Assembly (NCBI RefSeq): GCF_963678975.1
Contig: NC_089278.1
Location: 9,451,479 to 9,515,478 of the forward strand
DNA: 64,000 bases
Direction of reading: 5' to 3'
DNA from: Dysidea avara
Lineage: Eukaryota > Porifera > Demospongiae > Dictyoceratida > Dysideidae
In this document: one piece after another, positions 27,480 through 63,093 of the stretch
Layout: every line of letters starts with the position of its first letter
Position numbering within the stretch: position 1 is the first letter of the stretch
Notes under the pieces: generated by a model
Seen by the model: the letters and a program-made list of their open reading frames with translations, nothing else
Databases searched by the model: none
What the model was told of the DNA's origin: nothing
Translations under genes and position numbers: made by a program

Positions 27480-28735
27480 TGGATCTACCCCTGTGTATCC
27501 ACAAGTAACCCTGTGTACCTGTAACCCTGTGTATCCACCCGTAACCCTGTGTAGCCCCCGGTAACCCCATGTATCCACATGTAATCCTGTGTAGATACCC
27601 GTAACTCTGTGTAACCATCTGTAACCCTGTGTAGCTACCTGTAATCCTGTGTATCCACAAGTAACCCTGGGTAACCACTCATAACCTTGTGTATCCACCC
27701 GTAACCCTTTGTAGCCACCCGTAACCCTGTGTAGCTATATACCTGTAATCTTGTGTATCAACAAGTAACCCTGTGTATTCACCCATAACCCTGTGTATCC
27801 ACATGTAACCCTGTGTAGCCACCCGTAACCCTGTGTAACCACCCGTAACCCTGTGTATCCACAAGTAACCCTGTGTATCCACCCGTAACCCTGTCTATCC
27901 ACAAGAAACCCTGTGTATCCACATGTAACCCTGTGTAGCCACCCGTAACCCTGTGTAACCACCCGTAACCCTGTGTATCCACAAGTAACCCTGTGTATCC
28001 ACCCGTAACCCTGTCTATCCACAAGAAACCCTGTGTATCCACATGTAACCCTGTGTAGCCACCCATAACCCTGTGTATCCACAAGTAACCCTGTGTAACC
28101 ACCCGTAACCCTGTGTATCCACAAGTAACCCTGTGTATCCACCCGTAATCTTGTGTGTCCACAAGTAACCCTGTGTATTCACCCGCAACCCTGTGTATCC
28201 ACATGTAACCCTGAGTAGCCACATGTAATCTTGTCTATCCACAAGAAACCTTGTGTATCCACAAGAAACCTTGTGTATCCACATGTAACCCTGTGTAGCC
28301 ACCCGTAACCCTGTGTAACCACCCGTAACCCTGTGTATCCACAAGTAACCCTGTGTAACCACCCGTAACCCTGTGTATCCACAAGTAACCCAGTGTATCC
28401 ACAAATAACCCTGTGTAGCCACAAGTAACCCTGTGTAGCCACCCATAACCTTGTGTATCCACAAGTAACCCTTTGTAGCCACTTGTAACCCTGTGTATCC
28501 ACCTGTAACCCTGTGTAGCCACAAGTAACCCTGTGTATCCACAAGTAACCCTGTGTAGCCACCCGTAACCCTGTGTATCCACAAGTAACCCTTTGTAGCT
28601 ACTTGTAACCCTGTGTATCCAGAAGTAACCCTGTGTACCCTTCCGTACTTTGTGTAACCAGAACTATCCCTGTGTTTCCACAAGTTATTCTTTGTAATAA
28701 CCTTTCACCCCTTTGTAGCTTTCTGTAACCTTCTT
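27480..28735 (-). repeat. 20-bp minisatellite array, inverted orientation
   Basis: Same family as 25,170-26,912 but reversed (unit GTAACCCTGTGTATCCACAA on the plus strand), about 60 units. A 120-bp higher-order block (six units, including the variant CCCTGTCTATCCACAAGAAA) is repeated at 27,781-27,900 and 27,901-28,020. Units decay beyond 28,640. Together the arrays could form a very long imperfect hairpin with a 0.57-kb loop. Confidence 0.95.
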
Positions 28736-38169: not shown

Positions 38170-38200
<31 letters not shown>

Positions 38201-40666
38201 CATAATAATATTTTGACAGCCAAGAATACTTGTCATTTGTGTGTGTGTTTTTTTCCAGTGGACAGGAATGCATTTCAAGCATCAGATGAGGCACAGATGA
38301 TACTGGCTGATGCCATTGCAATGAGACAAAAGGAAGAGACACAACCTGTCAGGAGCGTATTTCAGTTATTTCGAAGATTCTTCAAAAGAGCTTTGCGACA
38401 GGGGAGAGCACAGAGTGATTCCCGAATCATGATGGAATGGATGGTACAAAGAACAGAGAAACTCAGTGGAATAACTAGTGAACAACCTGGAGAAGGATTA
38501 TCTGCAGATACCATTGATATGCTCTTTGATGAGTCTCGATGTGAGGGACCTACTCCCAACTGCAACATACCCACTGTCAATCAGTTTCGCACCATTGATG
38601 GAACCTGTAATAACCTTAGGCTTCAAACAATTGGAGCTTCATTCACTCCGTTTGGGAGAATAGTACCACCAGTTTACGAAAATGGCATCAGTCAGCTTAT
38701 AGGGTTTAGACAAGCTTTTATACTTAACAGACCTTTTGATCCTCCAAAACCTTCTGCTCGATTTATCAGCATAAGAGTGGTCCAGGATCTAGAGATAGAG
38801 CAGCAAGAGTCCACTCTCATGTTGATGCAATGGGGACAGTATCTTGACCACGACTATGCTTACCTAATTGAGAGCTCCACACTTAATGGTGAAGAAATAG
38901 AATGTGACAATAGCAGACCTGAAGGAGAGTGTGTGCCCATTCCTGTTGAAAAAGATGATCCTCAGTTTGGTGTAGGCACAAAACAAAATGGTGTTTTCTT
39001 ATCATTCATCAGATCTGGTGTTAGCTGCATGCGTCCAGCTAGAGGGAGATTTAGTCCACGTCAACAGCTAAACCAAATTACTCATTGGATTGATGCTTCA
39101 AATGTCTATGGTTCACTACCTGAAGAAGAGAGACAATTAAGGGCATTCCGAGGTGGTCTACTAAGAGAAGGAAGCATACCTGGCACTCTACCTCCAGATC
39201 CTAACCCAAGGCTAGAATGTCCTGGTGAAAGAGAATGTTTCCTTGGTGGTGACATTAGAGCTAATGAACAAGTTGTCCTCACTGTCATGCATACAATATT
39301 TCTTCGACTACACAACAAAATTGCTCGACGACTTGGAGCTCTGAATCCTACCTGGCTAGATGAGAGGATATATCAAGAAGCAAGAAAGATTGTAGGGGCT
39401 ATAGCACAAGTCATCACATTTGATGAATACCTACCAGAGATATTAGGAAGAGACAATATGCTTAGACTGTTGGGAAGATATGAAGGATATGATCCAAACT
39501 TGGAAGGTGATCTACCCAACTCATTTGGAGCTGCGGCTTTTCGTATTGGTCATTCTCAAGTTCAACCTTTCTTTGACCGCATAGATGAATTTGGAAGGCC
39601 AATGTCCCCATTACCTTTACTTAATGCTTTTTTCAACCCACAAGCTTTCTTTGATAGTGGTGGCACCGATCCCCTCCTTCGTGGGCTACTCAGTCAACAA
39701 TCTAGAAAGATAGATTCTTTTGTCACAAATATATTGACTAACAGATTGTTTGAAAGAGATGGGATGCCAGGAATGGATCTTGCTTCACTAAACATTCAAC
39801 GTGGCCGAGACCATGGACTACCATCTTATCGAGTGTTTAGAGATTTCTGTGCTGACAAATTTGGACTTAGAGGACAAATTACAAATCGAGGTACACTCGA
39901 TAGGCTGCAAAGAGTTTATGGCTCAACAGAAGATATTGATCTGTGGGTTGGGGGCTTGGCTGAAGATCCGTTACCTGGTGGAAGAATTGGGGCCACCTTT
40001 GCTTGCATATTTGCCATCACTTTCAAAGGACTGAGAGAAGGAGATCGTTTCTACTATGAGAATCCTGGAGTGTTTACTCCTGAACAGCTTACTGAGATCA
40101 GGAAGGCTAGTCTATCCAGAGTAATTTGTGACACTGCAGATAACATTCCTGAGATACAACCAAATGCTTTCAGTACTGTCCAGGCACGAAGACCGTGTAG
40201 TCTCTTGCCATCTATTGATCTTACAAAATGGATTGAGGGATCAGGACCATCCTCACAAAGTTGTTACATTAAAGTACAAACTCGAGGTTATGTCGCTACT
40301 GCTAGTGTATTTACCAGACCTTCAGATGATGCCTCACTGTGGACCAGAGAAGACCGAGAGAGAACAACACCAGTTGACTCCCGTACCAGAGCAGCCTGTC
40401 TTGAGTTCACTTGCCCACCACAAAATGGTGACATCAAAATTGGTGTCAGGGCTCGTACCATCTCATCACGTTGTGAACTAGAACAAGTGGTTGGTGCACT
40501 ACCAGCAAATCGTGCCAGGAGTTCTACCACATACTACGGAGTTCTTCAAGGAGGAACATTTGGACCAAACACAGGAATATACACCAGTGAAGAAGAATGT
40601 CGATCTGGTGGTGGTAGTCTACCAGATGAACCATCCAGAGGAGTGGCACTGGCTTACAAATGCTAA
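38064..40666 (+). CDS. Secreted animal haem peroxidase, gene 3
   Basis: Two exons (38064-38130, 38259-40666), 824 aa. The signal peptide (MKIAILLVIALTALQLELAA) and the intron, including its start GTAAGAGCAATATGACAGCT, are close to gene 1, whereas the C-terminal extension (TRGYVATAS) matches gene 2. The gene is thus a mosaic of its neighbours. The catalytic set is complete: LDHD, DIRANE and FRIGHSQVQP. One visible difference near the proximal histidine is QVQPFFDR in place of QIQPYFDR. The intron has a (TA)n run at about 38,163-38,200. Confidence 0.92.
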
Positions 40667-41047: not shown

Positions 41048-43571
41048 ATGGAGAGAGGAGTTGTACTGCACAAGGCATGCATCATGCTGACTGCACTCTT
41101 GTTGTATCCTGTTTGTGTTGGAGCAATTATAGCCGGCAATGAAGACAGAGGTCAGTCAAATATATTCACAATAAATCTCCATATACAGAGCTCTTTTTTG
41201 CTTTTATTTAGTGACCAGTATTGTGCGCCAAATCAAAGAAGAAGCTAATCTTCTTGTTGCAAATGGTGATGAAGTGCTTGCCCGTGTGGAGGCACAAAAT
41301 GTTGATACACCTAACACAATGCTGAGAGCTTTCAAGAAAGCATATCCTCAAGCACGAGCACAGGCAACAGCCAGAGTTGCATATGAATGGATGAAAAAGA
41401 GAATGGAACAACAAATGATGAATGGATGGGTAGCAAGTGAAGAAATTATAGAAACACTCTATGATGAGTTACCTTGCAAAGGACCGACCCCTAACTGCAA
41501 TTTTCCAACTGTTAATAAATTTCGTACTATTGATGGAACATGCAATAATCTCAAAAAACAAACCTTGGGGGCAGCTTTCACTCCATTTGCTAGGATACTG
41601 CCTGCAGTTTATGAGGATGGCATTGCTCAGCCTATTGGGTTTGAACAAACTTTTTTATTAAACGATCCATTTAGTCCTGTAATACCTTCTCCTCGAATTA
41701 TCAGCCTAAAAGTCAATCAACGTATTGACAGAATAATTGACCAACCAGAGGCCACTCTCATGTTAATGCAATGGGGACAGTTTCTTGACCATGACTATGC
41801 TTATTTGATTGAGAGCTCTACTCTTACTGGTGAAGAAATAGAGTGTGATTCATGTAAAGCAATAGGAGAGTGTTTACCAATCCCTGTACCTAAAAATGAT
41901 CCTCAATTTGGTGTGGGGACATTGCAAAATGGTAACTGCCTACCTTTCATCAGATCAGGAGTCAGTTGCATGAAAACTGAGAAAGGAAAACTTGGTCCTC
42001 GTCAGCAGCTTAACCAAATAACTCATTGGATGGATGCTTCACAAGTTTATGGGTCACTGCCTGAAGAAGAGTTTATACTAAGAGCTTTTAGTGGTGGTCG
42101 TTTGAGAGAAGGAAAGATATCCAGAACACTCCCCCCTGACCCCAGTCCTCGACTTCCATGTCCTGGCCCTGTGCCGTGTTTCCGTGCAGGTGATCTAAGA
42201 TCTAATGAACAAGTAGTTTTGACTGTTATGCACACAATATTTCTCAGGGAACACAACAGAATTGCTACAGCACTTCAAACTATAAATCCCCACTGGAATG
42301 ATGAAAGGATTTATCAAGAAGCTAGAAAGATTGTAGGAGCTGAAGTACAGTCAATCACATATCAGGAATACCTCCCAGAAATACTAGGTGATGACAATTT
42401 GTTCCGTTTTCTTGGTATATATGAAGGATATGATCCCTCAGTTGCGTCTGGCTTACCCAATGCATTTGCAACTGCAGCGTACCGTTTCGGTCACAGTCAA
42501 GTTCCTAATTATTTTCAAAGGCTGGATGAATTTGGAAGGCAGCTGACCCCCCTTGCCTTAGTTGATGCTTTCTTCAATCCTCAAGTATTTTCTGCTAATG
42601 GAGGCACTGATCCTCTCCTTCGTGGGCTATTAAGTCAGTATTCTGGACTGATTGATGAGTTTGTCAACACTAATTTGACCAACAGATTGTTTGAAAGGCC
42701 TAGAATGCCAGGAATGGATCTTGCTGCACTAAACGTTCAACGTGGCCGAGATCATGGACTACCATCGTACCGTGAATTCAGAAACTTCTGCACCAACACA
42801 TTTAGATTGAGGGGACAAATAAAGGACCAACTCACACTCTTAAGGTTACGACAACTTTATAATTCAGAAGACAATATAGATCTGTGGGTTGGTGGGCTGG
42901 CTGAAGATCCATTGCCTGGTGCAAGAATTGGGCCCACTTTTGCCTGCATATTTTTCATCACTTTTAAGGCATTGAGAGAAGGAGATCGTTTCTACTATGA
43001 GAATCCTGGAGTATTTACTCCTGAACAGCTTACTGAGATCAGGAAGACCAGACTGTCTAAGATTATATGCGACAATGCAGATAATATACAACGAGTACAA
43101 CCGAATGCATTTAGCACTACAGAGGCACCAAGGCTATGTAGACAGCTACCATCTATTGATCTCTTTAAATGGTTTGAAAGAAACCGAAACTGTTACATTA
43201 ACATGCACGTTCATTCCCGTTTAACAGCACAAGCATTCCTGTACACTGAGCTAGATGATGAACGTGGGTGGAATTTAGAAGACAAACAATTGATCAGTGC
43301 TGGAAGCCCAACAACTTGTCTTCAGTTTACTTGTCCAATGACTAGTGACAACTTCAAGTTAGCGATCAGAGTACGGCGCTTACAAACTATCTGTCGAATT
43401 ACACAAATCAATGCATTACCCAGAAATTCTGTAGCAAGCATAAATACTTACTATACCATACACCGACCAATGTTTGGACAACGACATGGATTCTACCACA
43501 GCATTAAAGAATGCCAATCTGGAGGTGGAAGTGGTCAACAAGGTGGACAGGCAATCACATATATCTGTTAA
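41048..43571 (+). CDS. Secreted animal haem peroxidase, gene 4 (diverged)
   Basis: Two exons (41048-41150, 41212-43571), 820 aa, with the same intron position and phase as genes 1-3. The N-terminus is a signal peptide with a hydrophobic core MLTALLLYPVCVGA; an internal ATG at 41,081 is an alternative start. Distal WGQFLDHDY, Arg/Glu in GDLRSNE and proximal YRFGHSQVPN are present. Unlike genes 1-3 it retains the canonical REHNR. The sequence is clearly the oldest branch of the array, differing across the whole length, yet its C-terminal extension keeps the Cys positions and the SGGGS-type end. An ATTAAA near 43,635 may serve for polyadenylation. Confidence 0.92.
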
Positions 43572-44099: not shown

Positions 44100-47000
44100 C
44101 TACTTTAAAGAGATGTCTTTCTCGATCAGTGAAGCAGCAATAGCATGGTAGGCGTGCTTGTTTTGTTTGAAAGTTTCAACAGCAAGTTGTTGCGACTTGG
44201 GACACTTGTAAAATTCTCTGTAGAAAAAAATGTGTGTACCAGTACCACTAGTGTTTATATTTACCTGTATAGTGGCCGGACAAATTTCATTCTTCCTTGC
44301 TCCACCAGAAACTTTACGACATGTGGGAAGCAGTCTTCATGGCTGCTCTTCAGACACAGTTTCTGCCACCTGCAACCGGTTGTCAGTCCACCAGTTGTCA
44401 GTGTAGTATTCTGTAAACATACACTCACCGAAATCTGATCTCAGCATTCTTTCTGGAGTTCATCTGATAAAGAGTCTCCATTGCTTTCAGGTGTTCACAA
44501 GACAAAGGAGACTAAAATAATGAAGAAGATGATTTTAAAAATAACGTGTGTTATTGTTATGTTCACATGCCACTGTTATAAAAAGCCATGCCATCTTCTG
44601 CGTTGCTTAAAGTTATTCTTCAACTTATAACTATCATAAGTCAGATTGAGTGGTCTATGACGCTGCATTCAGGCTGCAGTCTACTGGGCCATCTCTGATA
44701 ATTTGTACATACGTACACATTATGGTGATGCAAGTAAGCACACTGTAAAGTGGTGATGTAATAGTTTACTATCACTTCACGGTGAGGATACAGTGCTTAT
44801 GTATGTTTTGTAAAAGTATGATTATCACTCCCATAAATTATGAACTCTTGTAAACACTATACACCCTTTAACATAGAGACTACAGTTGCCATGGTTACAT
44901 CTACCTGCTCTTGCAGTAGCTTATCCAAAAATTCTTGCGTCTGTTTTGCTGTAAAGCTCTCTAAATCACTAGCTTTGAACTGGTTAAGATCTGATGCTGA
45001 TGCCTAATGATACAAGCAGTACAACACACTCAGGGACCAGCCCATTAGTACCTTAGCCCACTGATCAGCCAAGGAGTGGCAGGCAGCAGATAAAGTAGGG
45101 TCATAACTAAATCAGATGGAAACAAAATGCATCATGATGATGATCAACATTAAACTACCTTGGATTGTACGGTGGCATACCAGGTGAGTACAGCCACTTA
45201 TCCCACTCCACACCATCAAGTACTCCCTCCTCAACCTACACATGTATAATCATCCTGTTGATTCTTAAAATGCATGGCACAACTTTACAATGCACTGAAA
45301 CTTCTATAACCCAATGTCCATTGGAACTAACAAAATTAATTGTGTCAGATTAATGGTAGTAAGTCTTTTGGTGTAGTGAATATATAAGTTGTTGGATTAG
45401 AGAAGACTCATCTAGGACATGCTTAATATTTAGTGACTACAATTATAGTTTTGACATGGGCCAACATAACATACTCCAGTGTAATGGTATGCTCATACAT
45501 ACATTCATACAACACTGCTACAACAACAAAAAAAAGTAAAGTTAACAAAATAATAATATCAATGAGCCATGATAGTTACCTAGACAACTATCCCAAGGGC
45601 TTTATCCATTAAAGTTTAGTATTACTTCATAATGTGACGATTTTGTCTCGTGTATAATTGGTTCAATCTATACCAAATCACAATTAGCAAATTAGTGGGA
45701 ATTGAAATGTAGTTCTCAGATCAGTATAAATCACAAATTTTTGTTTTCAGTCATCAATGACTGCTCCATTAGAATAGTTTGATTGCTCTATTAGAGTACC
45801 TTGTTGTGTCAATGGAAAGGGAAGGGGAACTATGCCCTCCTCTAGATCCATCACTGTAGTGTGTGGCATTATTATAAAGGCATGTACACATAGCTACACA
45901 GTGTGCAGAAGAATGATATTGCTAAGTCTCCACTTTCTTGGGCTAAAGTGTTAATGGTATAGGTTTGATAATTAAAAAACACACACACACACTCACACAC
46001 ACACTAACTTGTTTGTGAAAGTACGAGAGAAAAAAGCTCTTCCAATCATCAGTTGTGATAACTTTGTACTTAAAGTGTTCAACATGTGCACGAAGATACT
46101 TGTTGAAAACTTCTACAGTTCAACAACGCAGGCACATGAGAGCATGTCTATGCCTACAATAAAATACCTGCGCCTCCCAATAAACTTTCCAGGTAGTAAA
46201 GAAGTGCAAATCCCTTTTCATAGGGAACTGTAGAAAAGGCATCATCGGGATCGACATCCTTCAAAACTGGCACAAGTGCTGTCAATGGATTATCACTGCC
46301 AAACGTGTTCACCTATAAAACACTATCACGATTTCCTTAAAATTACTAAAAAACACACAGAGTCTTGTAGTGTTTTCCAACCACCTTCAAGTCAAAAATA
46401 AACCTTGTAACAGGTAATAAACAAGTACAGAAGAACATACCAATGGCTTGAAACTGCCTCTCTTTCTCTCCATGCATCACAGCTGCAATCTTTCGCTCAA
46501 GAAATACCGTAAACCCTTCATTCAACCTGTCAGCAGTAGAGCCTTATGGTCAGCAATGATGCAACTAATGCTAACCAAAAATGCTCCCAAGTCTTGTTAG
46601 TTACAAGATTACCAGTCCAGCTGTGAGATATCTCATGAGCAACAACCTAAAATGACCGCATAATTGTTGAGTGAATAGAATAATGTGAAACTTACATTAG
46701 CTAGAGACCGATCTCCTGCCTGCATAACCAGACATTAGTGTTACACCAGAGAGCATGACATGAACATACCAGTAGGGTTGGGGTGACGAAGGTCAGACAA
46801 GGGTTCTCCATGCCACCATAAGGAAATGATGGAGGTAATACCACTAGATCATACACACCCCACAGATAAGGCCCTACAATACTTTCTGCTGCCTGAAGCA
46901 TTTGTTCAGTCTATAAAGTGACCTCAATAATGTCATCTCACAACATTACAAGTTTCACCTCTGCAAACTCATACGCGGCAGACTCCACGACTTCTTTCTC

Positions 47001-50000
47001 TGACCACACATGTGATCTTGGCCCAATTTGTCTGCATATAGAGAATAATAGGAGCTACTAAGTGTACAAGACTTGAACCTGCTCTCCAGGGCTCCTACAA
47101 CCAGAGCAATTAGATATGATGGGATGGCAACCTAGAATAGGTGATGTCATGTGATACACTACTAACACAAATCATTTCATACCGCCTGTTTAAACTGGCA
47201 TATTTTCTTATCACTTTCTGGTGACGGTTTGTCCTCCAACTTCACAGCACTCATCAAAGCAGTCAGTTCACTTGGAACAGTTATCTAACCAGTAGCCACA
47301 CAGTATTCACAACCCTTAGAGGGTGCATCCCTAACCTCAGCAACATAGCTACACTTCACTGCTGGTGTGTCTTGACATGGCAACATACTACGAGCATGGA
47401 TAGCCTACAAAACACACAGTCAATTCAGTGGTCATTAACCATTAACATGCAAATCAAATTACTTGACATTGGGTAAAGAGATAAGGATGAATCTTCCCTG
47501 CAGTTTGAGTTGGCTCCAGCCACTGCATGGCAGACACTGCAGATGGTCCCGGTTCCTTTGTCTCATATTGGATGGCAATCGTTAATTTGCTGGAATAATT
47601 AAGAAACTGATGTCAACTACACAGAGCCATACACTACAATGTCCTTTGTATTATGTAGCATACTACATCAACAGCACAAATGCAGTTAATACACTATGTG
47701 ACCTCCACCGTCAATGCACCACCCAAATAAGTTAATGTTATGCTGTTTCTAAAAACAAGGTGCCCAGTTAACACTATGAGTAGGAGATTAATCAGCTATC
47801 TTGTTTACAAAAAGAGGTATTTTAGTTTTGTAATCATGTTAATCGCGTAGTTTTCATAAAATAACTTTGTTTTTAAGAACCAAAGCCACTATAGTGGCGT
47901 TAGGGGCCAAAGGGTAACCCTTTGGCCCGTCTTAAAAATGGCTGAAAATTCTTTCAAACGCAGATTCGCTTTACATTACGCTCGATTATGCTACAATGAT
48001 CGGATAAAGCTTAGGATAATATCCGTTAACTACAGAGTAGCGTGGTCTAAACTGTATACCGTATAGAGGGAATCATTAGTTAGGGTAAACTTTGGCGAAT
48101 AGCCAGCTAAATTGCATTTGGTGAAATAAACATTGGCGAATCCAATTTATTTTTAACTATGAAGATGCCAATCTCACTTGCTACAAGTAATCGGCGGATT
48201 AAAACTTCGGCGAATTTGTAGCAAATTGCCAAATTCGCCAAAGTTTTTCCCCGCCAAGGTTTCCCTCTATACGGTATTCATAGGATATTTTGCTTAAGAG
48301 ACATATGCGTTTGAATGCATGCATGTAACAAGAGCCACTATAGCGGTGTTCGCATTTAACAAAACACTTTTTAAAATAACTTAGGGGCAAAAGGTTAAAT
48401 TAATTAAGTAATTAATTAATTAAAGGTTTCCAAAAATAACTTCATATTCCTTTTAAGGTATCAAACTTAATTAGGTGGTTTGATTTAGGGAACAAACGAA
48501 TAGTGATTTTTACTAGTCGAATATTCTATTTTTATGCATACCAACTGACTCAATGCATGTTGCAGATTTACCGGCATCTAACCACTTACATAAGAATATT
48601 GAGTTTTTTTTATTTTTGTGAAATCATCTTGAGCACACATGCATGTAAGTCAAAATGTAACTAAAACATACACAGATTAGATACATTATAAATATAAGTT
48701 TCACAGTATTATACTTAGTTAGAATTACATGTACTTATGCACCAAGCAGTTACAATAATTTGTAATTTTTGCTTAAAAACATCAGCAAGTTCAAGAGTTC
48801 TGGGTTTAAACTAGATCGCAATCGGTTAGCTATAATGCCAGCACAGGAAAAGATGCACTCCAATGGAGTTGAAGTAGCCGGAACACAGAAATACTTTTGA
48901 ACTAAAGGTATGAGTAAACTGTAACGTGAAGTACTAACTTTCCACCATTGTAGAGGAGAAGATTCATGGGAAGGAATGTTATCTGATAAGTAAGCTCTAA
49001 CTATTTCAGAGACATGATCACCACTTCAACAGAAACTTCGAGATGGGATGGCATTTAAACTATTTTCACTGTGTTATTTACAAGTATATACTGCTCCCTA
49101 GACCAGCATTGAGCCATGATAAGGTTAGTGATGAGCTTCTGTATCTCCTTGTCTATTGAATGGAGGGTTCCTAGGGGTCTTGGTAGGCACTTCTGTGATA
49201 AAGTTGATATCAGCTCTAATTTGTAGTCCTTTCTTCTGGAACTTCATTGGCTGTTGTTGTGGTGCTTGAAGTTCCTGCCACCATATTCTGCAGGGTAGAA
49301 TTACTCTCAAAAAATTTTTTCATTATTCTATTCCAACAGTCATTACTATGCTCTTATCATTCCCAAAATGTGTTCATTAATGATTCCAACTTTTCTCTCT
49401 TAAAAATCGAACCATTGCAATCAAGACACACATAGTGTCGTGCGGCCCAAGAAGCCAGCGCACAACACTGTGAGTATATTGACAGAAAGATAGAAAAACT
49501 TTTGCACCACCATAGCTTTGTGCTGCCTTTACGAAACAAGACGATTTTTGCTGTGGACACGCCCACCAATTACAGTACTCCACATACCAAATTTGAGCGA
49601 AATCACTTCGATATGCGACTTCAAAAATTGGCTTAGTTTTTTTCTTTTTCATATTTTCTTCCTCTTTTCGCACACTTACAAAAACTGCCTTAAAACGCGA
49701 ATTCCATATCCGATTGCCTTGAAATTTGGCACACAGAAGGGGGGGTATTAAGGCACATCTTGGTACCAAGTTTGGCTGAAATACAATAAACAGTGAAGGA
49801 ATTATTAGTGATTATTCACAAAAAATAACACCAATTGATATGTTGTCACGCCTACAGGGTAAACCGCTTACGGGAAGAAGCTGAAAATCGGTGGGTGAAT
49901 AGGTCAACTATTGAACTTCAAACCTTTTGTGGTTTGAAAGAAATCGAGCTAAAGACCACGAAGATACAACAACAAAACCAACAGTGTGTAACAGTTATGC

Positions 50001-53000
50001 AATGAAGATTAGCTGATATAAAACAACTACTTGCCATGCCTACCAGAAAAACTGCTTGGAGTAATGCTTTGAAAATTGCTGTACAGATGGAGTAATCATC
50101 TTAGAAAGGCTCTTCAATGGTGTAGAAAAATCAGGCTTAAAGCCACAGAGTTTATAACACGAAATCCAACTTGGTGTAGCAAGTGCAAGATTGAGATACT
50201 CTAATAGAACAGTCATTCTAATAGAGCAGTCACCCAGAAGAGAATTCAAGAGATCAGCTAGAAACAAGTAACCCATATAGAGATCAGCTACAAACAAATC
50301 ACCCTGTAGAGAGATCAGCTAAATACAAGTTACTCTATTGAGATCAGCTACAAACAAATCACCCAGTAGAAATATGTGCTGGAAACAAATCACCATGTAG
50401 AGAGATCAGTTAGGAACAAGTCACCCAGTAGGAAAGTTCAGCTAGCACCTTGTAGAGAGATCAGCTACAAACAAATCACCCTGTAGAAAGATCAGTTGGA
50501 AACAAGTCACCCTGTAGAGATATGTGCTGGAAACAAATCACCATGTAGAGAGTTCAGCTAGAAACAAATCACCCTGAAAAAGAGGTCAACTACAAACAAT
50601 GAGAGTTTCAGCTACAGTTCAGTTATGTAAATATTGCTTATGTGATATATTCAGTGTTAAATATACAAATATTTAATCAGACAAAATGCTATACACACAA
50701 TTGCTTCTTTTGCTCCTGCAGTAAAGAAAACAAAAACAAGTTAAAAGGAAGCACCAAAGCCAGTTTATGGCCAGCTTTGTTGCTTGCAATTCAAAAAAGA
50801 AGTGATATTTAAACCAAAACAGCCAAGCTGTAAAAAAAGAAAGCATCCCCCAAAAATTCCAGGGTGAAAAAAGATGCGAAATCAAAGGTGGTGGCCAACA
50901 AATGGCTGTGATGGTAGGTTAATAGCAAAAAAATTAATAACGACAATTCAGGTGAATTTAAGGGCTTTGGTTTAGATTTATAATGTTAGCAAGATTTTGT
51001 AGCAGTGAAACTACTGTAGAAAGCTAGCTTTTTAGATGGCAAGATGCTTAGTAACTGTTACAACAGAGAAAATATACTGTAATTATTCAGCTGACTGCTC
51101 TATTAGACTATCTCAATCTACAACTTGTGTATTGTGTCAATTACGCTCTTCAAAATGCTGGCAATTATTTTACCCAATCACTATTGCTGGCATAACAGAC
51201 CCAGGGTGCCCTTCTCCAAAAAATGACAAATGTTGTTCATTCTGTTAACCATTTGGGTGAGGTCCATCCTTGTTCTGGCTACCTTTGCTAAAGCTTCTGT
51301 TCCTCTATCCTTTTCGTGACTATCTCCAAAAAGCCACCAACAAACAAGGTTGTCTCCTTCACCTTGTCCTTGGTCTCCTCTGTGTCCTCTGGTGGGGCAC
51401 CCATGGTGGGATTAATTTGGGACCAAGTCATTTGTTTCCTTTCCTGAGTAATGGAGGACAAGGGTCAGTATGCTCCATAGAAATAGGATTACATCTTTGG
51501 GAATAACAGTAGCATTTCGACTGAGCAAGTCTGCCCATAAACACAAGAAAGGGCCTGACATGTCCAGGATTTGTTTTTGGATATATTAGACAAGTTGTTC
51601 TCTCAACTCCATAGTGGGGGTGATTGCCTGACCTCTCAACCTCCTGGCCCTGTTCACATGAGGAACCAGCCAAAACGCAGAACCATGGAGGGATTGGTTT
51701 CTTACTTGGGTGGCATTAGGTGTGGTGTAAGGTGACTGAGGTAGCGGGAAAGGGGCAAAAAAAATTGCATTGGGAACACTGGGGCCATAGGGTTTCCTGC
51801 CACGCCACTCTGCCATGATCTTCGGTACTAGGCGTGTGTTGCTCCACCACGTGGCTGCCCTATGTGACCTTTTGAATCAGTAAATATCTAATATCCGTGT
51901 TGTTTAACAGTGTGGAAATTTGTTTCTCTCGTTCTGCTGATTGTCTGTCACCTTCTATATGGTTATTGATCTCAGACCCTTCAGATGTACAAACTACTAA
52001 TCACATGCAGCAAAAGAAAAAAGCAGGCATTGGAGCACATGCGTGACCAAATATAGGACTCATTTTTTTCTTTGTATTGAGCTACTAATTGCCATGTTTT
52101 TGCATGTAGAAAGTGTTACATGCAGTGAATACAATTCCTAGTTTTTAGATACCTCTGCTTTCTTTGTCACTATGCCTCACATGATGTTTATAAAAACAAG
52201 TATAAGGAAAAATTCCTAATTTTTCCTTATGCCTGTTTGTTTACTTTTTTGTAAACATTATTGTGATTGGAGAACCCATGCTTACCGCATTAAAAGAAAG
52301 AATGGCACCAGAGTTAATGTTTTCATCTGAATGCGCATCGCAACTCTCAATTACTGATTTGAAAGTGAAGTGGCTATTATGCTTCACCTTCAGCTACATT
52401 CAGCCTGTTATATAGCACTACAAATCAGTAGGAGAAGCACTAGAGATGGGCGGTATTGCATTTTTGAAGAACGGTACGGTATTAGGAAAAATACCTCGGT
52501 ATCACTAAATACCTTTTAAACATGAATAAGCTATGATTTGCACTTATACCCAAAATTGTTTTAAAAGAAGCAAATGAAACAACAATAATAATATTGTGCC
52601 ACAAAGTAAGTTTTGAAGTATCCCAAAAAGTAAAAACCATTGTGAATACTTCAACATGCACTCATAGCTCTGTGCTTGTCCACAGCGTAAACATGTTTGT
52701 ATGAGGCTTGACTTCATGTACGTATGGTCACCACTAAACCACCAAAAATTAATTACTACATCAAATTCGGTATTCGGTATTTTTAGAAAACCACTTCAGT
52801 ATCTGAAAAATATCTTGATTTACTACTAATACCTACGTAAATACCTCCCAACCCTAAGAAGCACCTTCTGCGAGCAATCCAGTTACCACGAAAATTACAG
52901 ACAATTCACGTGCCCCAACTATCAATTACTGACTTGAGTGACCCTTCACTTTCAGCTATGTTCAGTCCATTTCACAGCATTGCAAACGAAGAACAGTAGG

Positions 53001-56000
53001 AGAAGCGCCTCTGCGATTAATCCAGTCACCATGGAAAATATAGAAGATTCCCATTTACAAATGTAAGTAGGGAAGGCATCGCGCTACCACGAATCAACAC
53101 CTTGGGATGTCAGCAAAAAGGAGGACAAAAGTAAGTCCATGATGTGTGCATTATACATACTGCAGTATGCCAAAAGGCACATCTTGAGACAAAGTGAGAT
53201 GTCAAACAGTGAAAAATCAAGCCCGTACGTAGCCTTAGCCGTTATTGAGTTGGGCAGGAAGTTAGTAGAAAATTCTATTGAATAAATGTTTTTAGAAAAA
53301 AATTTGTAACAGGTCATACTGAAGGCACTTTTGGGCTTGATTATACCTTACCAAAAAGGCACCAGGATGATATTGTGAAGCTGGTTTTTGGGTGATATTT
53401 TTGGCCAGAAAAACCCAAACCTCCAATATATACAGTACTACTGTACTGTATGATTAGAAATTATGAGTGTCCTTGAAAAGAGGTCTGCAGCCTGCTGCAT
53501 TAGGCCACTTGCGCTGCACAATGGGCACACAAGTTTGTTATGTTACCTAGCTAATAAAGTTCAGAAACTTTGAGCCAACAAATATTCCATGGAATAGCTT
53601 CAGTGAAGTGATCACTGCAAGCTGCTCAACACACCAACTTTGGGCATGTGGCACATGAAGTTGGAAGACTTGTACAATTTACAGCCTGATTTATATCCCC
53701 AGTTGCTGGAGGTACAAAAAATGAGTGGCCTATACAAATCCAGACCCTTTTCAGAATAGGCGTTCGTCTATGATTTAGTGTGAGGTACTATGACAGAGAA
53801 AGAGTGGTTTGGCTATGAAAGACTAGCCACTGTGACTTACAAAAGTATTTAGTACAAGTATAGAATGTATAGACATTGTAAAGTATATAGAATCTAATCA
53901 AAAACAGCCAAGCTGTAAAAAAAGGTGCGGCCCCCCAAAAAGGCCATGGTGAAAAAAGATGTGAAATCCAAGGTGGCGGCCAAGAAATGGCTGTGATGGT
54001 AGGTTAATGGTAAAAATTTTAATAACGACAATTGAGGTGAATTTGATGCCAAGACCAAGTGGCACAAAATTCACCTGAATTGTCGTTATTAAAATTTTTA
54101 CCATTAACCTACCATCACAGCCATTTCTTGGCCGCCACCTTGGATTTCACATCTTTTTTCACCATGGCCTTTTTGGGGGCCGCACCTTTTTTTACAGCTT
54201 GGCTGTTTTTGATTAGATATCACTTCTTTTTGTATTTGTATACTGCAAAGCCAACCTATGGCTGGCTTTGGGGCTTTTTTAACCCATGTGTTTTTTTTAT
54301 TTACCACAGGAAGAAGAAAAGAACTTATAGAAGATTTTTAATACTTCAATTATTTTTGATTTTATTAGTAATTATACAAATTATATACATATATTTATTA
54401 CATGCCCATTATTCCCCACAGTATATTTTTTAGCAGCTGATATCTCTACTGGGTGACTTAAAATATAGCTGAACTATATATAGGATGGTTTCTTGGTAGC
54501 TGAACTCTCTACAAGATAAATTCTTCTAGCTGATTTCTCTACAGGGTGATTTGTTTCTAGCTGAACTCTCTACAGGTAATTTGTTTGCAGCTAAACTTTC
54601 TACATCCATGGTGGTTTCTTTGTAGCTGAACTCTCTACATGATGGTTTCTTTGTAGCTGAACTCTCTACAAGGTGACTTCTTCTAGCTGAACTCTCTACA
54701 GGGTGATTTGTTTCTAGCTGAACTCTCTACAGGTGATTTGTTTGCAGCTAAACTCTCTACATGGTGCTTTCTTTGTAGCTGAACTCTCTACATGACAGTT
54801 TCTTTGTAGCTGAACTCTCTACAAGGTGACTTCTTCTAGCTGAACTCTCTACAGGGTGATTTGTTTCTAGCTGAACTCTCTACAGGTGATTTGTTTGCAG
54901 CTAAACTCTCTACATGGTGCTTTCTTTGTAGCTGAACTCTCTACATGACGGTTTCTTTGTAGCTGAACTCTCTACAAGGTGACTTCTTCTAGCTGAACTC
55001 TCTACAGGTGATTTGTTTGTAGCTGAACTTTCTACAGGTGATTTGTTTGCAGCTAAACTCTCTACATGGTGCTTTCTTTGTAGCTGAACTCTCTACATAA
55101 CGGTTTCTTTGTAGCTGAACTCTCTACAAGGTGACCTCTTCTAGCTGATTTCTCTACAGGGTGATTTGTTTCTAGCTGAACTCTCTACAGGTTATTTGTT
55201 TGCAGCTAAACTCTCTACATCCATGGTGGTTTCTTTGTGACTGAACTCTCTACATGATGGTTTCTTTGTAGCTGAACTCTCTACAAGGTGACTTCTTCTA
55301 GCTGAACTCTCTACAGGGTGATTTCTTTGTAGCTGAACTCTCCACCTGATGGTTTCTTTGTAGCTGAACTCTCTACAAGGTGCATGACCTCTTCTAGCTG
55401 ATCTCTCTACAGGGTGATTTGTTTCTAGCTCAACTCTCTACAGGTGATTTGTTTGCAGCTAAACTCTCTACATGGTGCTAGCTAAACTCTCTACATGACG
55501 GTTTCTTTGTAGCTGAACTCTCTACAAGGTGACTTCTTCTAGCTGAACTCTCTACAGGTGATTTGTTTGTAGCTAAACTCTCTACATGGTGCTTTCTTTG
55601 TAGCTGAACTCTCTACAAGGTGACCTCTTCTAGCTGATTTCTCTACAGGGTGATTTGTTTCTAGCTGAACTCTCTACAGGTTATTTGTTTGCAGCTAAAC
55701 TCTCTACATCCATGGTGGTTTCTTTGTAACTAACTCTCTACATGATGGTTTCTTTGTAGCTGAACTCTCTACAAGGTGACTTCTTCTAGCTGAACTCTCT
55801 ACAGGGTGATTTCTTTGTAGCTGAACTCTCCACATGATGGTTTCTTTGTAGCTGAACTCTCTACAAGGTGACTTCTTTTAGCTGATCCCTCTACAGGGTG
55901 ATTTGTTTGCAGCTGAACTCTTTAGGTGGTGATTTCTTTGTAGCTGAACTCTCTACAAGGTGACCTCTTCTAGCTGATTTCTCTATAGGGTGATTTGTTT

Positions 56001-59000
56001 CTAGCTGAACTCTCTACATGATGGTTTCTTTGTAGCTGAACTCTCTACAAGGTGACCTCTTCTAGCTGATTTCTCTATAGGGTGATTTGTTTCTAGCTGA
56101 ACTCTCTACAGGGTGATTTGTTTCTAGCTGAACTCTCTACATGATGGTTTCTTTGTAGCTGAACTCTCTACAAGGTGACTTCTTCTAGCTGAACTCTCTA
56201 CAGGTGATTTGTTTGTAGCTAAACTCTCTACATGGTGCTTTCTTTGTAGCTGAACTCTCTACATAATGGTTTCTTTGTAGCTGAACTCTCTACAAGGTGA
56301 CCTCTTCTAGCTGATTTCTCTACAGGGTGATTTGTTTCTAACTGAACGGTCTACAGGTTATTTGTTTACAACTAAACTCTCTACATCCATGGTGGTTTCT
56401 TTGTAACTGAACTCTCTACATCCATGGTGGTTTCTTTGTAACTGAACTCTCTACATGATGGTTTCTTTGTAGCTGAACTCTCTACAAGGTGACTTCTTCT
56501 AGCTGAACTCTCTACAGGTGATTTGTTTGCTGCTAGACTCTCTACATGGTGCTTTCTTTGTAGCTGAACTCTCTACATGATGGTTTCTTTGTAGCTGAAC
56601 TCTCTACAAGGTGACTTCTTCTAGCTGAACTCTCTACAGGGTGATTTCTTTGTAGCTGCACTCTTTAGGTGGTGATTTCTTTGTAGCTGAACTCTCTCCA
56701 AGGTGACCTCTTCTAGCTGATCTCTCTACAGCGTGATTTGTTTCTAGCTGAACTCTCTACAGGTGATTTGTGCGCAGCTAAACTCTCTACATGGTGCTTT
56801 CTTTGTAGTTGAACTCTCTACATGATGGTTTCTTTGTAGCTGAACTCTCTACAAGGTAACTTCTTCTAGCTGATCCCTCTAAAGGGCGATTTACTTGTTG
56901 TTGAATTCTCTACATGGTAATTTATTTGAGGCTGAACTGTCTACATGGCAGTTTCTTTGTAGCTGAACTCTCTACAAGGTGACTTTTTCTAGCTGAACTC
57001 TATACAGAGTAATTTGTTTGCAGCTGAACTCTCTACATGATGGTTTCTTTGTAGCTGAACTCTCTATAAGGTGACCTCTTCTATAGCTGAACTCTTTACA
57101 TGGTGTCTAGTTTTTACCTGATCTCTCTACAGGGTGATTTGTTTGCAGCTGAAATCTCTACAGGGTGATTTGCTTGTAGCTGAACTTCTTACATTGTGTC
57201 TAGTTTCTAGCTGATCTCCACAGTGTGATTTGTTTGTAGCTGATCTCTCTACTAGTTGATTTGTGTGTAGCTGATCTCTCTGCAGGTTGATTTGTTTGTA
57301 ACTGATCTCTCTACAGGGCAATTTGTTTGTAGCTAAACTCTCTATAAGGTGATTTGATCTCTCTGCAGGTTGATTTGTTTGTAGCTGAACTCTCTAAAGG
57401 GTGATTTGCTTGTAGCTGAACTCCTTACATTGTGTCTAATTCCTAGATGATCTCTCTACAGGGTGATTTGTTTGTAGTTGATCTCTCTGCACATTGATTT
57501 GTTTGTAGCTGAACTCTCTACAAGGTGATTTGTTTCTAGCTGATCTCTCTACAAGTTGATTTGTGTGTAGCTGATCTCTCTGCAAGTTGATTTGTTTGTA
57601 GTCGATCTCTCTACAGGGTAATTTGTTTGTAGCTGAACTGTCTATAAGGTGATATGTTTGTAGCTGATCTCTCTGCAGGTTGATTTGTTTTAGCTGAACT
57701 CTCTACAGGGTGATTTTTTCTAGCTTATCTCTCTACAGGTTGATTTGTGTGTAACTGATCTCTCTACAAGCTGATTTGTTTGTAGCTGATCTCTCTGCAG
57801 GTTGATTTGTTTCTAGCTGATCTCTCTACAAGTTAATTTGTTTGTTGCTGATCACTCTAAGATTGATTTGTTTGTAGCTGAACTCTCTGGAAAGTGTTTT
57901 GTTTGTAGCTGATCTCTCTACAGGATAATTTGTTTGTAGCTGAACTCTCTGCACAGTGATTTGTGTGTAGCTGAATTCTCTAGAGAGTGATTTAATTGTA
58001 GGTGAACTCTCTACAGGGTGCATGACTTGTTTATAGCTGAACTCTCTTTAGTGTGACTTGTAATACTCTGAATCTCTACAGTGATATAATTGTAGCTTAA
58101 TTCTCCACAGGGTGACTTGCTTCTTGCTTAACTGTCTATAAGATTAACTGTTTGCAGCTGAAGTCCCTACAGAATAACTTGTAATGTAATAGAATTCTAT
58201 AATGGAGTAAATAAATTAGCTGAATGCTCTATTAGGGTGACTGTTCTATTAGAGTATCTCTATCTCGCATTTGCTACACGGAGTTGGCTTTCGAATCATA
58301 ACTCAGTGGTTTGTAATCCAATTCTTCTATACTACTGCAAGGACTTTCTATGAAGATTATTCCAGCTATACACCGATTTTCAGCTCATTGCTCTTAGCGG
58401 TTTGCCTAGTAGGCGTAAAAACTAATACTTTTTTATTACTAAAAATCGATCGCGTAATTGTGACACAGGTTGGGTTTTGTGTCATATCTCCGTGGTCTTA
58501 ATCTCGATTCCTTTCAAACTACCAAAAGGCACTCCTACGATGGTTACTCCATCTACATAGCAATTTTCAGCTCATTCCATGAAGCGGTTTACCCTGTAGG
58601 CGTGACAACAAATCGATCTTGTTTTACGCGAATAATCGGTCATAACTCCTGAACCATTCATCGGATTTGCACCAAATTTGATGCTAGGATGCGCCTTTGG
58701 ACTCCCTTTCTGTGTGCCAAATTTCAAGGCGATCGGAGCACGCGCTTGCGTTTTATAGCAATTTTTGCAAGTGTGCGAAAAGACGAAGAAGAAAAAAACG
58801 AAGAAAAAAAAACGAAACTTTGGCCGCTCATATCTCGGAAATGGCTTGAGTGATTTCCTTCAAATTTGGAATGTAGACTTCCCTAGCTGGCGGGCAACTC
58901 TGCAGCAAATTTGGTTTCAATCGGATAAGCCATCACCGAGATACAAAAGTGTGAAAATGACGTTTTCTTTCTTCCTGTCAATATACTCACGGTGTGGCGC

Positions 59001-59735
59001 GCCGGCTTCTTGGGCCGCACGACACACTATCGTGTGTCTTGATTCTACAAAATGTTGGGTCCCTGCATGGTCCTTGGTCCCCGGTCCACTCAGCCGATGA
59101 AAAACTTTGTGGTGTAAACCTAGCCCACCTGACAGATGGCTACAACATGTCTTGATAAAAAAATTAGAGATGTAACCAAAACACCTAAATTGTGTTTATC
59201 CCTAAAAAGGAATATCCGGTAATTGCTTTTCTAGGAAATATTTATTCCTGGAAACCAATTTTTACTAGAGGTCAACATAAACCAAGGGTATGCCACCTCA
59301 GCAACCACAGCCGCACACTTCACAACACACAATGCACTGGCACACAAACTAATCTACTATGCTCTACATTAATCACAGATACACACACACACTACCTATT
59401 AGCTGATGAGTCTGGTAGCTGAACAGTGAGAGGTGATCCAAATGCAGGGTGTGCATCACCTAGAGTATACTCTAGTCGTTCTCCTGATTCTGCAGCTACC
59501 ACATTCAGTATAACTAGATCACGTGTGTCTAACACCTGAGCAGGTTTGTATAAACTATTAATAGTACGGCTATCAATTGGCTTACCAGTCTGGAAGTGTC
59601 GTCGTGGTGAATATCTATCACAAACGTGACTACTCCTTTGAGTATTTTCCTTTTAAAGTCTACCTCCAACTTTATATCCAATTCCTTGGCTGAAGCGTCC
59701 TCAAAGTTGGAGTACGAAGTTGGATCAGCTGACAT
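44100..59735 (-). CDS. LTA4H: Leukotriene A4 hydrolase / aminopeptidase, 20 exons
   Basis: M1-family zinc enzyme, in mammals both an aminopeptidase and the epoxide hydrolase making leukotriene B4; expected cytosolic, no signal peptide. Exons 1-20 (plus coordinates): 59586-59735, 59396-59535, 47463-47589, 47336-47404, 47183-47284, 47079-47131, 46959-47031, 46770-46910, 46696-46719, 46576-46646, 46441-46526, 46359-46384, 46168-46312, 46009-46112, 45159-45235, 45052-45106, 44905-45003, 44429-44511, 44265-44369, 44100-44217; all phases agree, 615 aa (human 611). Key residues: GGMEN (270-274), zinc site HEISH (297-301) with Glu320 of NEG, Tyr385 of PYEKG, and QGRMK (566-570) for the substrate carboxylate. 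The position matching human Tyr378 is Phe380. Exons 9 and 12 are only 24 and 26 nt. Intron 2 is about 11.8 kb of mobile DNA. Confidence 0.96.
45976..46008. repeat. (AC)n microsatellite at an LTA4H donor
   Basis: An AC/TC run abuts the exon 14 donor, so on the gene strand the intron begins GTTAGTGTGTGTGTG. Length change here could affect splicing. Confidence 0.7.
48057..48276. mobile_element. TIR MITE, TA-flanked
   Basis: Terminal inverted repeats TACCGTATAGAGGGAA and TTCCCTCTATACGGTA enclose about 216 bp, with inner echoes (TTTGGCGAAT and ATTCGCCAAA). If TA is the target duplication, the element proper is 48,059-48,274, as for Tc1/mariner-like MITEs. No coding capacity. Confidence 0.75.
48750..49065 (-). 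pseudogene. hAT transposase C-terminal fragment
   Basis: The minus frame reading from about 49,065 down to a TAA at 48,750-48,752 shows the hAT dimerization domain: [40 protein letters not shown], then [30 protein letters not shown] and the N/R-L-L-P spacing are diagnostic of the family. A TGA at 49,026-49,028 breaks the frame and the catalytic N-terminal part is missing or unrecognisable. It is a relic, but it shows that autonomous hAT elements lived here, fitting the hAT MITEs nearby. Confidence 0.85.
49419..50962 (+). mobile_element. Unclassified element, copy A (short array)
   Basis: The left end AATCAAGACACACATAGTGT then CGTGCGGCCCAAGAAGCC matches in reverse complement the right end of copy B at 59,044. 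Then come about 0.75 kb of shared sequence (for example TTGCCTTGAAATTTGGCACACA, in copy B as its reverse), the motif ATACTCTAATAGAACAGTCA (50,194-50,232), a short tandem array (50,240-50,600; unit about 30-40 bp, AGATCAGCTACAAACAAATC) and an AT-rich piece ending in a segment (50,811-50,962) homologous to the fold-back arm at 53,892-54,050. No coding capacity is recognised. Confidence 0.72.
51230..51840 (-). pseudogene. Possible retroelement gag-like relic
   Basis: The minus strand reads, across a [11 protein letters not shown] then [20 protein letters not shown] and [20 protein letters not shown]. The pattern (short helix, GPF-LWA-LL, then a helical repeat) resembles the first ORFs of DIRS-type elements, but I cannot confirm it by eye and the frame is broken in several places. 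It might equally be a decayed host exon set. No partner RT is adjacent. Confidence 0.3.
52441..52856. mobile_element. hAT-type MITE with 8-bp target duplication
   Basis: Ends TAGAGATGGGCGGTATT and the reverse complement of AAATACCTCCCAACCCTA form imperfect terminal inverted repeats. The flanks are identical AGAAGCAC octamers (52,433-52,440 and 52,857-52,864), the hAT signature. A diverged copy of the flanking sequence without the insert is seen at about 52,995-53,040 (AGTAGGAGAAGCGCCTCTGCG), which serves as a natural empty site. Confidence 0.85.
52900..53460. repeat. Dispersed repeat, related to 36,830-37,270
   Basis: Diverged match over several hundred bases to the region upstream of peroxidase 3, including GTTAGTAGAAAA, a TTATACCTTACCAA phrase and ACTGTACTGTATGAT. 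The part at 52,300-52,440 plus 52,857-52,920 resembles 52,905-53,060, a local tandem duplication. Confidence 0.55.
53892..54218. repeat. Long fold-back palindrome, 160-bp arms
   Basis: 53,892-54,051 is almost the exact reverse complement of 54,060-54,218, with an 8-bp loop (AGACCAAG) and only scattered mismatches. The arm carries AACAGCCAAGCTGTAAAAAA and AATAACGACAATT. A single diverged arm is present at the end of element copy A (50,811-50,962). The structure could extrude as a cruciform or, if transcribed, form a long RNA hairpin. Confidence 0.93.
54060..59044 (-). mobile_element. Unclassified element, copy B (expanded satellite)
   Basis: Reverse-oriented relative of copy A: fold-back arm at 54,060, tandem satellite 54,430-58,150, the paired CTCTATTAGAG motif (58,221-58,260), then about 0.78 kb of shared sequence (ACCCTGTAGGCGTGACAACA, AATTTCAAGGCGATCGG) ending GACACACTATCGTGTGTCTT GATT at 59,044. 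A short hairpin (GACACAC/GTGTGTC) sits at this end. There is no CTRR Helitron end, no obvious terminal inverted repeat with the other end, and no coding sequence, so I leave it unclassified. Confidence 0.7.
54430..58150. repeat. Satellite of ~31-bp monomers with 153-bp higher-order units
   Basis: About 120 monomers near TAGCTGAACTCTCTACAAGG plus a variable 11-base linker (GTGACTTCTTC, GTGATTTGTTTC, TGGTTTCTTTG, TGCTTTCTTTG). Five linker types cycle in order, giving a higher-order repeat of 153 bp, measured from AGGTGACTTC at 54,671, 54,824 and 54,977. Past about 57,120 the array is more diverged, with TGATCTCTCTAC monomers, as expected at an ageing edge. The matching array in copy A has only about ten monomers. 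Confidence 0.92.
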
Positions 59736-60184: not shown

Positions 60185-61006
60185 CTAGTGTGTGTGTGTG
60201 TGCAAGTTGGCTTGAAAATTTTCCGCTGAGTTTTGATTGACAACATCTCCCAGCAAGGTATTCCAAAGTTTAATTGATGATGGCATATATGAATATTTGT
60301 ATGCATCCACTCTTGTGTAGGGCTGCATGAGGTGACCACGTGTATAGTGACATGTTACTGGTACTAGTAAGTTTATATTGTCATCAATGTCTACATCAAC
60401 AATATCATTAATTATTTTGTAAAACATTATCAGTTTTGCATTTGTCCTTCTGTTTTGCAAACTAGGCCATCCCAAAGATTCCATCATTTTAGTTACACTA
60501 GCATATCTGTCTTTTTTATTTAAAGCAAATCTTATACTGATCATCTTTGCACCATCTCTAGTCTATGTCTGGTATAGTGTGGTGACCATACCCAGGGCCG
60601 CCCACAGGGGGGGGCAACTGGGGCATTTTTCCCTGGGCCCCAGCCTGAAAGGGGCCCCAGGAGGCCTCATGAACGGCCCCTTGAATACCTGTTTAAAAGA
60701 TCGATATACTCTAATAGAGCAGTCAGATCTAAATACTCTAATAGAGCAGTCACAGTATTCTTCAGAGGAGCAGTGTAGCAAGCTTATAGATAAGGAGATA
60801 TGGTTGGTGAGGGGTAGTTATTGTCATTGTTAGCAGGTTATGACCTTTTTTTTTTTTTTTTTGGTCTTCAACTTACAGCTTGGGTGAAATTGTGATTCAG
60901 AATGGAAACCTCCTTGCCTCTGGGGCCCCACTTTAACTCTTTTCCCTGGGCCCCTTAATTTCTCTGGGCGGCCCTGACCATACCACTGATGCATACTCTA
61001 AAAATA
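60185..61006 (-). pseudogene. LINE reverse-transcriptase C-terminal fragment, interrupted
   Basis: Read from 61,006 on the minus strand with the MITE (60,593-60,976) and one target copy removed, the frame gives EYASVVWSPHYTRHRLEMVQ, then after a TGA and a frame change the tail RYASVTKMMESLGWPSLQNR with LIMFYKIINDIV, HLMQPYTR and SYMPSSIKLWNTLLGDVV. This is the end of the RT of CR1/L2/Jockey-type non-LTR retrotransposons. A (TG)n run follows at 60,188-60,203. Upstream RT and endonuclease are absent: a 5'-truncated, dead copy. Confidence 0.85.
60593..60976. mobile_element. hAT MITE inserted in the LINE fragment
   Basis: 384 bp with termini CAGGGCCGCCCACAG and the reverse complement of CTCTGGGCGGCCCTG. 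Both flanks are ACCATACC (60,585-60,592 and 60,977-60,984), an exact 8-bp target duplication. The LINE frame reads through if one duplication copy and the element are excised, proving the order of insertion. The interior has two ACTCTAATAGAGCAGTCA motifs (60,703-60,752) and a long T run, and is related to 21,469-21,745. Confidence 0.92.
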
Positions 61007-62783: not shown

Positions 62784-63093
62784 TGGGTATCCTTACAATA
62801 AGCTCTGCTAGTCACTTAGTTGCATGCCAGCTCAAGTAACTATATGCTTCCAGTGAATGTTTTATTAGAGTAGTTAGCTGACTGCTCTATTAGAGTATCT
62901 CGATCTTGTACACCTCCAATACTGATCCGGGTCTTTGTTGCATAAACTTTAGCATAAATCCACTGATAATACCTTGGAAAGATGTTTATAAGGTGGTTTT
63001 ATGAGTATTTGTATTATTAGTGATCATATAATTATGCTAAGACAAAATTTCATTATAATACTCAGTATATTGATCAAGTAAAGCCTAAAAGTG

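Follow-up and report, generated by a model that had tools for sequence, protein, structure and literature searches.

A 64,000-nucleotide stretch of the genome of the sponge Dysidea avara (NC_089278.1, positions 9,451,479 to 9,515,478; hereafter the window) contains two copies, A and B, of one interspersed family in opposite orientation. The family is a very common and apparently gene-less type of mobile DNA in this genome, and we consider it likely that it is non-autonomous and works like a Helitron2/Helentron-type rolling-circle element. Its copies have defined boundaries, an A|T target, a fixed internal order and a satellite that is mobile together with them. An earlier note on the window had described the two copies as a large unclassified element; the observation itself was confirmed, and the reading attached to it was supported in part.

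Element boundaries, family size and target site

The outer blocks of the two copies align (A 49419-50215 with B 59044-58238; 72% over 819 columns, E 2e-113), as expected from the earlier description of inverted copies that share their ends and an internal block. The 2.9 kb separating them lie outside both elements. With the 5' end of copy A as genome query, the best 40 of 4,427 candidates were scored, including the window, and 20 of the 39 other places were fetched as 10-kb loci. All 20 fetched copies began with A|TCAAGACACAC or a close variant. These copies had been picked by their 5' hairpin end; a 3' end of the form ..ACAGCTTGGCTGTTTTGGATTAGA|T or a variant was present within the fetched 8.5 kb in 17 of them, with a satellite between the two ends in 16 of the 17, and the fetched stretches of L017, L022 and L028 had no 3' end. 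The 17 fetched copies together with A and B gave a set of 19 complete elements, with a length of 1,067-5,838 bp (median 2,154) and with sharp limits, A|TCAAGACACAC...TTTTGGATTAGA|T. All 19 have an A directly before the element, and 17 have a T directly after it, the exceptions being L024 and L025 with a C; complete copies start with 5' TC, except L025 (TG). A preceded all 29 listed 5' ends, other subfamilies included. Single parts can be incomplete: L015 has neither motif nor satellite, the motif is single in L014, L026 and L027, several copies have lost part of a palindrome arm, and the leader is incomplete in some.

In the 551-Mb genome, the 5' end pattern has 5,860 exact matches and the 3' end pattern 10,298, with 0 and 0 for the reversed-pattern controls. 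The 5' block of copy B was 97-99% identical to its 39 best-scoring other matches. A scan of viral contigs for the 5' end and the satellite gave 0 matches.

For an empty-site test, the 80-nt flanks of the 19 copies were joined and compared with the loci in hand. Four of the 19 joined flanks (L009, L015, L016 and L021) matched an uninterrupted site with a single AT at the insertion point, the match of L015 being the weakest at 75% identity. A target duplication of more than 2 bp is excluded at these four sites, and a 2-bp AT duplication cannot be distinguished there from insertion between A and T without duplication. Of the ends and target duplications that the earlier note had looked ahead to, the ends hence proved to be sharp, and no duplication longer than the ambiguous AT was seen at the four sites. 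These observations also bear on the possibility that independent repeats were assembled by chance or segmentally and form no mobile unit, which is largely refuted and which we regard as extremely improbable. Such an assembly would account for a motif pair that is dispersed by itself and for the most diverged subfamilies, which have little in common beyond the terminal 25-40 nt; however, it fits neither the empty sites nor the constant ends, satellite place and satellite orientation in 16 of the 17 fetched two-ended copies and in both window copies.

Satellite and motif pair

The satellites of copies A and B belong to one 31-bp monomer family. The roughly tenfold growth in copy B that had been noted earlier holds, with 118.7 versus 11.6 units. 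In 18 of the 19 complete copies the satellite sits at one place and in one orientation, starting 813-871 nt from the 5' end, and therefore moves with the element. Array length in these 18 copies was 246-4,264 bp, without a single base in reverse orientation; the 3.7-kb array of copy B belongs to the long end of the observed range, and that of L023 is longer. Located between 5' block and 3' leader, the satellite travels inside the element and varies in length among copies, and array changes might occur via slippage, unequal exchange or replication. The element thus carries its own satellite, with fixed ends and orientation, arrays of 0-4.3 kb in 19 copies and thousands of exact ends. Copy B and its close relatives are nearly identical, so that comparing them would allow the growth of arrays and the loss of palindromes to be measured. 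At L022, for which no 3' end was found, a 3.5-kb array of an 18-bp unit (AATCACTCAGATCACTCC; L022:2771-6255) directly follows the satellite and is open in several frames.

The paired motif of the earlier note was found in copies A and B alike, but it is dispersed and occurs outside the element as well. With at most one mismatch, CTCTAATAGA had 22 matches in the window versus 5.6 expected; the motif is therefore not element-specific, and CTCTAATAGAG is a dispersed sequence. Near-matches numbered 106 in 264 kb versus 1 in one shuffle. When merged, they gave 68 sites, of which 28 fell into a cluster formed by the element and its relatives, 19 into four other clusters, and 21 were single. An AA-prefixed form, AAGATCGAGATACTCTAATAGAGCAGTCA, has 7,011 exact genome copies (control 0) and was present in only one of the 20 fetched copies (L016). 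In the window and across the genome, GATCGAGATACTCTAATAGAGCAGTCA appears in several otherwise unlike contexts, often as tandem pairs or triplets. Inside the element the motif stands at the satellite start, and the 17-bp repeat resembles a shortened satellite monomer by eye; the motif may have been the seed of the satellite array.

Terminal hairpins and 3' palindrome

The 5' hairpin has a 7-bp stem and begins 4 nt inside the terminus. Among 19 ends, 11 of them distinct, 94.8% of cells were paired, and two diverged subfamilies (L010 and L027) had a double change from A-T to T-A. Shuffles reached the observed fraction of paired cells in 8 of 500 cases and the covariation score in 7 of 500, and folding energies compared with shuffles gave z -2.8 and -3.3 for two subfamilies. 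We take this pairing and covariation as supportive rather than strong evidence for a hairpin. The 3' hairpin, ACAGC-TTG-GCTGT, lies 11 nt from the end and is conserved among copies, and its energy is unremarkable (z -0.9 and -1.4). Both ends are linked in 10 of 19 copies by a 9-bp inverted repeat, GTGCGGCCC, with one copy at nt 23-31 and the other 33-43 nt before the 3' end, which was reached by 0-5 of 200 shuffles per copy.

In copy B, the fold-back arms (53918-54051 and 54060-54193) are 93% complementary with an 8-nt spacer, and the 328-nt strand folded as DNA reached -193 kcal/mol (z -41). Copy A has kept a single arm, with 81-86% identity to the arms of copy B. The fold-back arm described earlier is hence found in B and as one arm in A; it is, however, no additional arm, but the 3' terminus together with its inverted copy further in. 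The inner arm comprises the entire inverted 3' terminus including the T that follows it, and the outer palindrome ends are identical on both sides, A|TCTAATCC...GGATTAGA|T.

Loci with the 3' and the 5' pattern were taken from the first 100 listed places each. The listed 3'-pattern places formed 64 loci with 36 opposed pairs, 29 of which spanned 313-336 bp and represent whole palindromes. Within the first 4.85 Mb of C1, an exact 5' end in proper orientation lay at most 9 kb away at 24 of the 64 palindrome loci (wrong orientation: 9), and a palindrome accompanied 23 of 50 exact 5' ends, in counts by exact matching that overlooks mutated ends. From the 18 listed palindromes that had both ends and no nearby exact 5' end, 11 were fetched. 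In each of these 11 the leader was present on one side only, and 9 had the satellite too (weakly in L049). Independent occurrence of the parts, a possibility raised in the earlier note, thus applies to the motif only: 17 of 20 copies with a 5' end had the 3' end, and 11 of 11 fetched palindromes kept their leader.

The palindrome could also be seen as the inverted repeat (320-330 bp) of a fold-back or MITE-like (miniature inverted-repeat transposable element) cut-and-paste transposon. Its length and the identical outer ends on both sides would suit such an element. Against this, none of the 11 fetched palindromes was free-standing and all had a leader at one of their sides, the opposite end of the element differs in sequence, and target duplications were absent at the four empty sites, which makes a cut-and-paste origin very unlikely. 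The palindrome as a separate MITE was rejected on the same count of 0 free-standing cases in 11.

Conversion that keeps the two arms alike was not supported either. Arm identity within a copy was 95.5% versus between-copy means of 93.3-94.9% (20 copies with at least 100 aligned arm bases), and only 5 of the 20 copies had arms at least as similar to each other as to those of the best other copy. Of 28 palindromes, 8 with arms that were short or absent did not enter this comparison, from which copy A and L011 had been excluded at the outset. The arms of copy B stand out with 99.3% identity within the copy.

In our reading, an inverted duplication of the 3' terminus has produced the palindrome, which is mostly 320-330 bp long and of which several copies, A among them, have lost a part. 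A more far-reaching and rather doubtful possibility is a rolling-circle lineage with a symmetrised 3' end, i.e., with the terminus and the adjoining target base repeated inverted inside the element. If true, either arm could bring the copying machinery to a halt, or this machinery could leave a single-stranded end that closes on itself. Symmetrised ends combined with a built-in satellite may then explain the very high copy number and the array expansion, and would point to a distinct route of satellite origin.

Coding capacity and candidate partners

A Pfam scan of 10 of the 22 listed open reading frames that overlap copies A and B gave no match at E <= 0.1, and tblastn with a Rep-helicase of the same genome found no match in the window or at the 20 loci. 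The proposal of a satellite-carrying, apparently non-autonomous element is thus borne out by a co-mobile satellite and by the lack of recognised coding sequence. Rep genes are numerous in the genome: Helitron_like_N had 150 scored matches, all those listed above the cut-off, and the open frames reach 2,798 amino acids.

At one of these places (L037:747-5859), two long frames of a Helitron contain OTU, Rep and PIF1 domains, and its end is formed by a hairpin and CTAG|T. Its 1388-amino acid Rep-helicase frame comes to an end 0.9 kb away from the satellite in a neighbouring copy of our family and points to the hairpin end of this copy. It was considered as a partner, which would have flipped the orientation of the family, and was rejected: similarity to L038 (97.9% identical) stops at the hairpin and CTAG|T, before the copy. 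At L051, a truncated copy of the element lies beside a Rep gene. In L053, 22 bp resemble the 3' hairpin region at 86% identity (E 0.001), a match that we judged to be due to chance or a remnant.

Helitrons also provide an alternative reading, in which the family is a canonical Helitron1-type non-autonomous element read in reverse, with the fold-back end A|TCTAATCC as 5' TC end and the hairpin beside TTGA|T as 3' end. An A|T target and a terminal hairpin are present, a TC start is found whichever way the element is read, and the same genome does hold a Helitron with a CTAG|T end. However, CTRR is found at neither end (TTAGA or CTTGA), the terminal hairpin is 4 nt from the terminus instead of 10-12 while that of the opposite end is at 11 nt, and the apparent Rep-helicase partner by the hairpin end is the separate element at L037. 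We hence regard the reversed reading as unlikely.

Other features of the window

The features of both copies are collected in Table 1. The earlier note had placed the two copies in one intron. Among 20 of the 48 listed open reading frames of at least 65 amino acids in and around the copies, the Pfam scan gave one match, a hAT transposase fragment, and therefore no exon was identified on either side. This fragment, from the dimerisation region, lies at 48750-49025, immediately left of copy A. Four consecutive long open frames of the animal haem peroxidase type occupy 22276-24765, 31614-34055, 38180-40666 and 41175-43571; the first and fourth were assigned by Pfam, the second and third by likeness of their translations. 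Retrotransposon remains at 13523-16214 include a reverse transcriptase domain (14390-15055). Further tandem repeats are a 124-bp unit in 6.9 copies (2015-2877) and two arrays of a 20-bp monomer (GTGGATACACAGGGTTACGG and CCCTGTGTATCCACAAGTAA; 25284-26865 and 27489-28685) in opposite orientation, 0.6 kb apart.

Table 1. Positions of copies A and B, their parts and the dispersed motif in the window
Feature	Position	Strand	Basis
Copy A, whole element; hairpin (5') end on the left, palindrome at the 3' end reduced to one arm	49421-50976	+	comparison with 20 genome copies
Copy A 5' terminal hairpin, 3 nt shorter than in other copies	49425-49439	+	
Copy A 5' conserved block	49421-50195	+	about 84-87% identity to 20 fetched copies
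Copy A motif pair TACTCTAATAGAACAGTCA / CATTCTAATAGAGCAGTCA	50197-50232	+	
Copy A 31-bp satellite, 11.6 units	50249-50599	+	
Copy A leader, from satellite to palindrome	50600-50806	+	
Copy A 3' terminus (..TTTGGTTTAGA|T) with the single palindrome arm still present	50807-50976	+	
Copy B, whole element, 5150 bp	53893-59042	-	comparison with genome copies
Copy B 3' palindrome, two arms of about 160 bp; inner arm is inverted duplicate of 3' terminus	53893-54218	-	
Copy B 3' terminus: subterminal GGGCCGCAC, hairpin ACAGC-TTG-GCTGT, then TTTTGATTAGA|T	53893-53934	-	
Copy B leader	54219-54465	-	
Copy B 31-bp satellite, 118.7 units	54466-58115	-	
Copy B motif pair	58221-58256	-	
Copy B 5' conserved block	58257-59042	-	
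Copy B 5' terminal hairpin GACACAC-GATA-GTGTGTC, 4 nt from terminus	59021-59038	-	
GATCGAGATACTCTAATAGAGCAGTCA motif sites	50197-50232, 58221-58256, 60707-60752, 62854-62897, 45758-45798, 21522		

Mechanism and comparison with known systems

From the arrangement of the ends we infer a rolling-circle mechanism, with the hairpin end as 5' end and a trans-acting Rep-helicase. Supplied in trans, this enzyme would recognise both hairpins, the terminal one at the 5' end and the one near the 3' end, and copy or peel one strand, which would then be joined between target A and T without duplication.

Several points weigh against this interpretation. No autonomous element with the ends of the family, as envisaged in the earlier note, was found at the loci examined, a few of the 150 Rep places. 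The Rep-helicase element at L037 has its own end before the neighbouring copy, and no family end was seen next to three further Rep genes, one of which is flanked by L039 on its upstream and L053 on its downstream side, and the other two by L051 and L052 on their upstream sides. At the 5' hairpin, double-changed pairs were equalled in 201 of 500 shuffles, and the covariation comes from one pair in two sequences. In 9 of 19 copies, the longest word that the two ends share is not GTGCGGCCC but a shorter one. Moreover, this repeat lies just inside the 5' hairpin, unlike the Helitron2 definition given in the cited parts of PMC3627910 and PMC5148889, by which an asymmetric inverted repeat of 8-15 bp has its 5' copy at the terminus as part of the 5' hairpin. 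Finally, HINEs and Helentrons insert into T-rich or T|T sites according to the cited part of PMC4067079, and our element inserts at A|T.

The earlier note knew no named family with this architecture. Close relatives do exist, as far as the cited descriptions reach, in Helitron2 and in the Helentron-derived HINEs (DINE-1, Cg_HINE). Helitron2 is, provisionally, the best fit among the named groups. In the cited sections of PMC3627910 (Bao and Jurka 2013) and PMC5148889, Helitron2 shares with our family a hairpin at both ends, the 5' one adjoining the 5' T, a short asymmetric inverted repeat (in 10 of 19 copies of our family) with its 3' copy upstream of the 3' hairpin, and a compensatory change in the 5' hairpin; FoHeli1 starts with TCAG and a hairpin (PMC5148889, same section). 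Different from Helitron2 are, besides the position of the inverted repeat, the A|T target, the inverted 3'-end duplication of about 160 bp and a satellite in nearly every copy.

HINEs such as DINE-1 have subterminal repeats, a 3' stem-loop, tandem repeats and TT insertion in the account of PMC4067079, and oyster Cg_HINE carries satellite-like arrays in that of PMC7492417. Within the portions of these two sources used here, the likeness to our element extends to non-coding sequence, subterminal inverted repeats, a 3' stem-loop, central tandem repeats that always face the same way and the lack of a target duplication, and no long terminal palindrome like that of our element is described there. 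We do not file the family as HINE because its target is A|T and not T|T, nor as canonical Helitron1 because CTRR is absent. By the definition in the cited sections of PMC3627910 and PMC5148889, canonical Helitron1 resembles the element in its TC start, A|T target, lack of target duplication and a 3' hairpin about 11 nt from the end; unlike it, our element has TTAGA (or CTTGA read reversed) in place of CTRR and an extra 5' hairpin. A literature search for four sequence strings of the element gave no paper.

Tetris, cited in PMC7492417 as a fold-back transposon from which a Drosophila satellite arose, is likewise mobile and combines tandem repeats with a fold-back structure; for our element, a free-standing palindrome was not seen (11 fetched). 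The family combines Helitron2-like ends with the A|T target of canonical Helitrons and with a second, inverted copy of its 3' end, a combination that bears on what the rolling-circle machinery needs.

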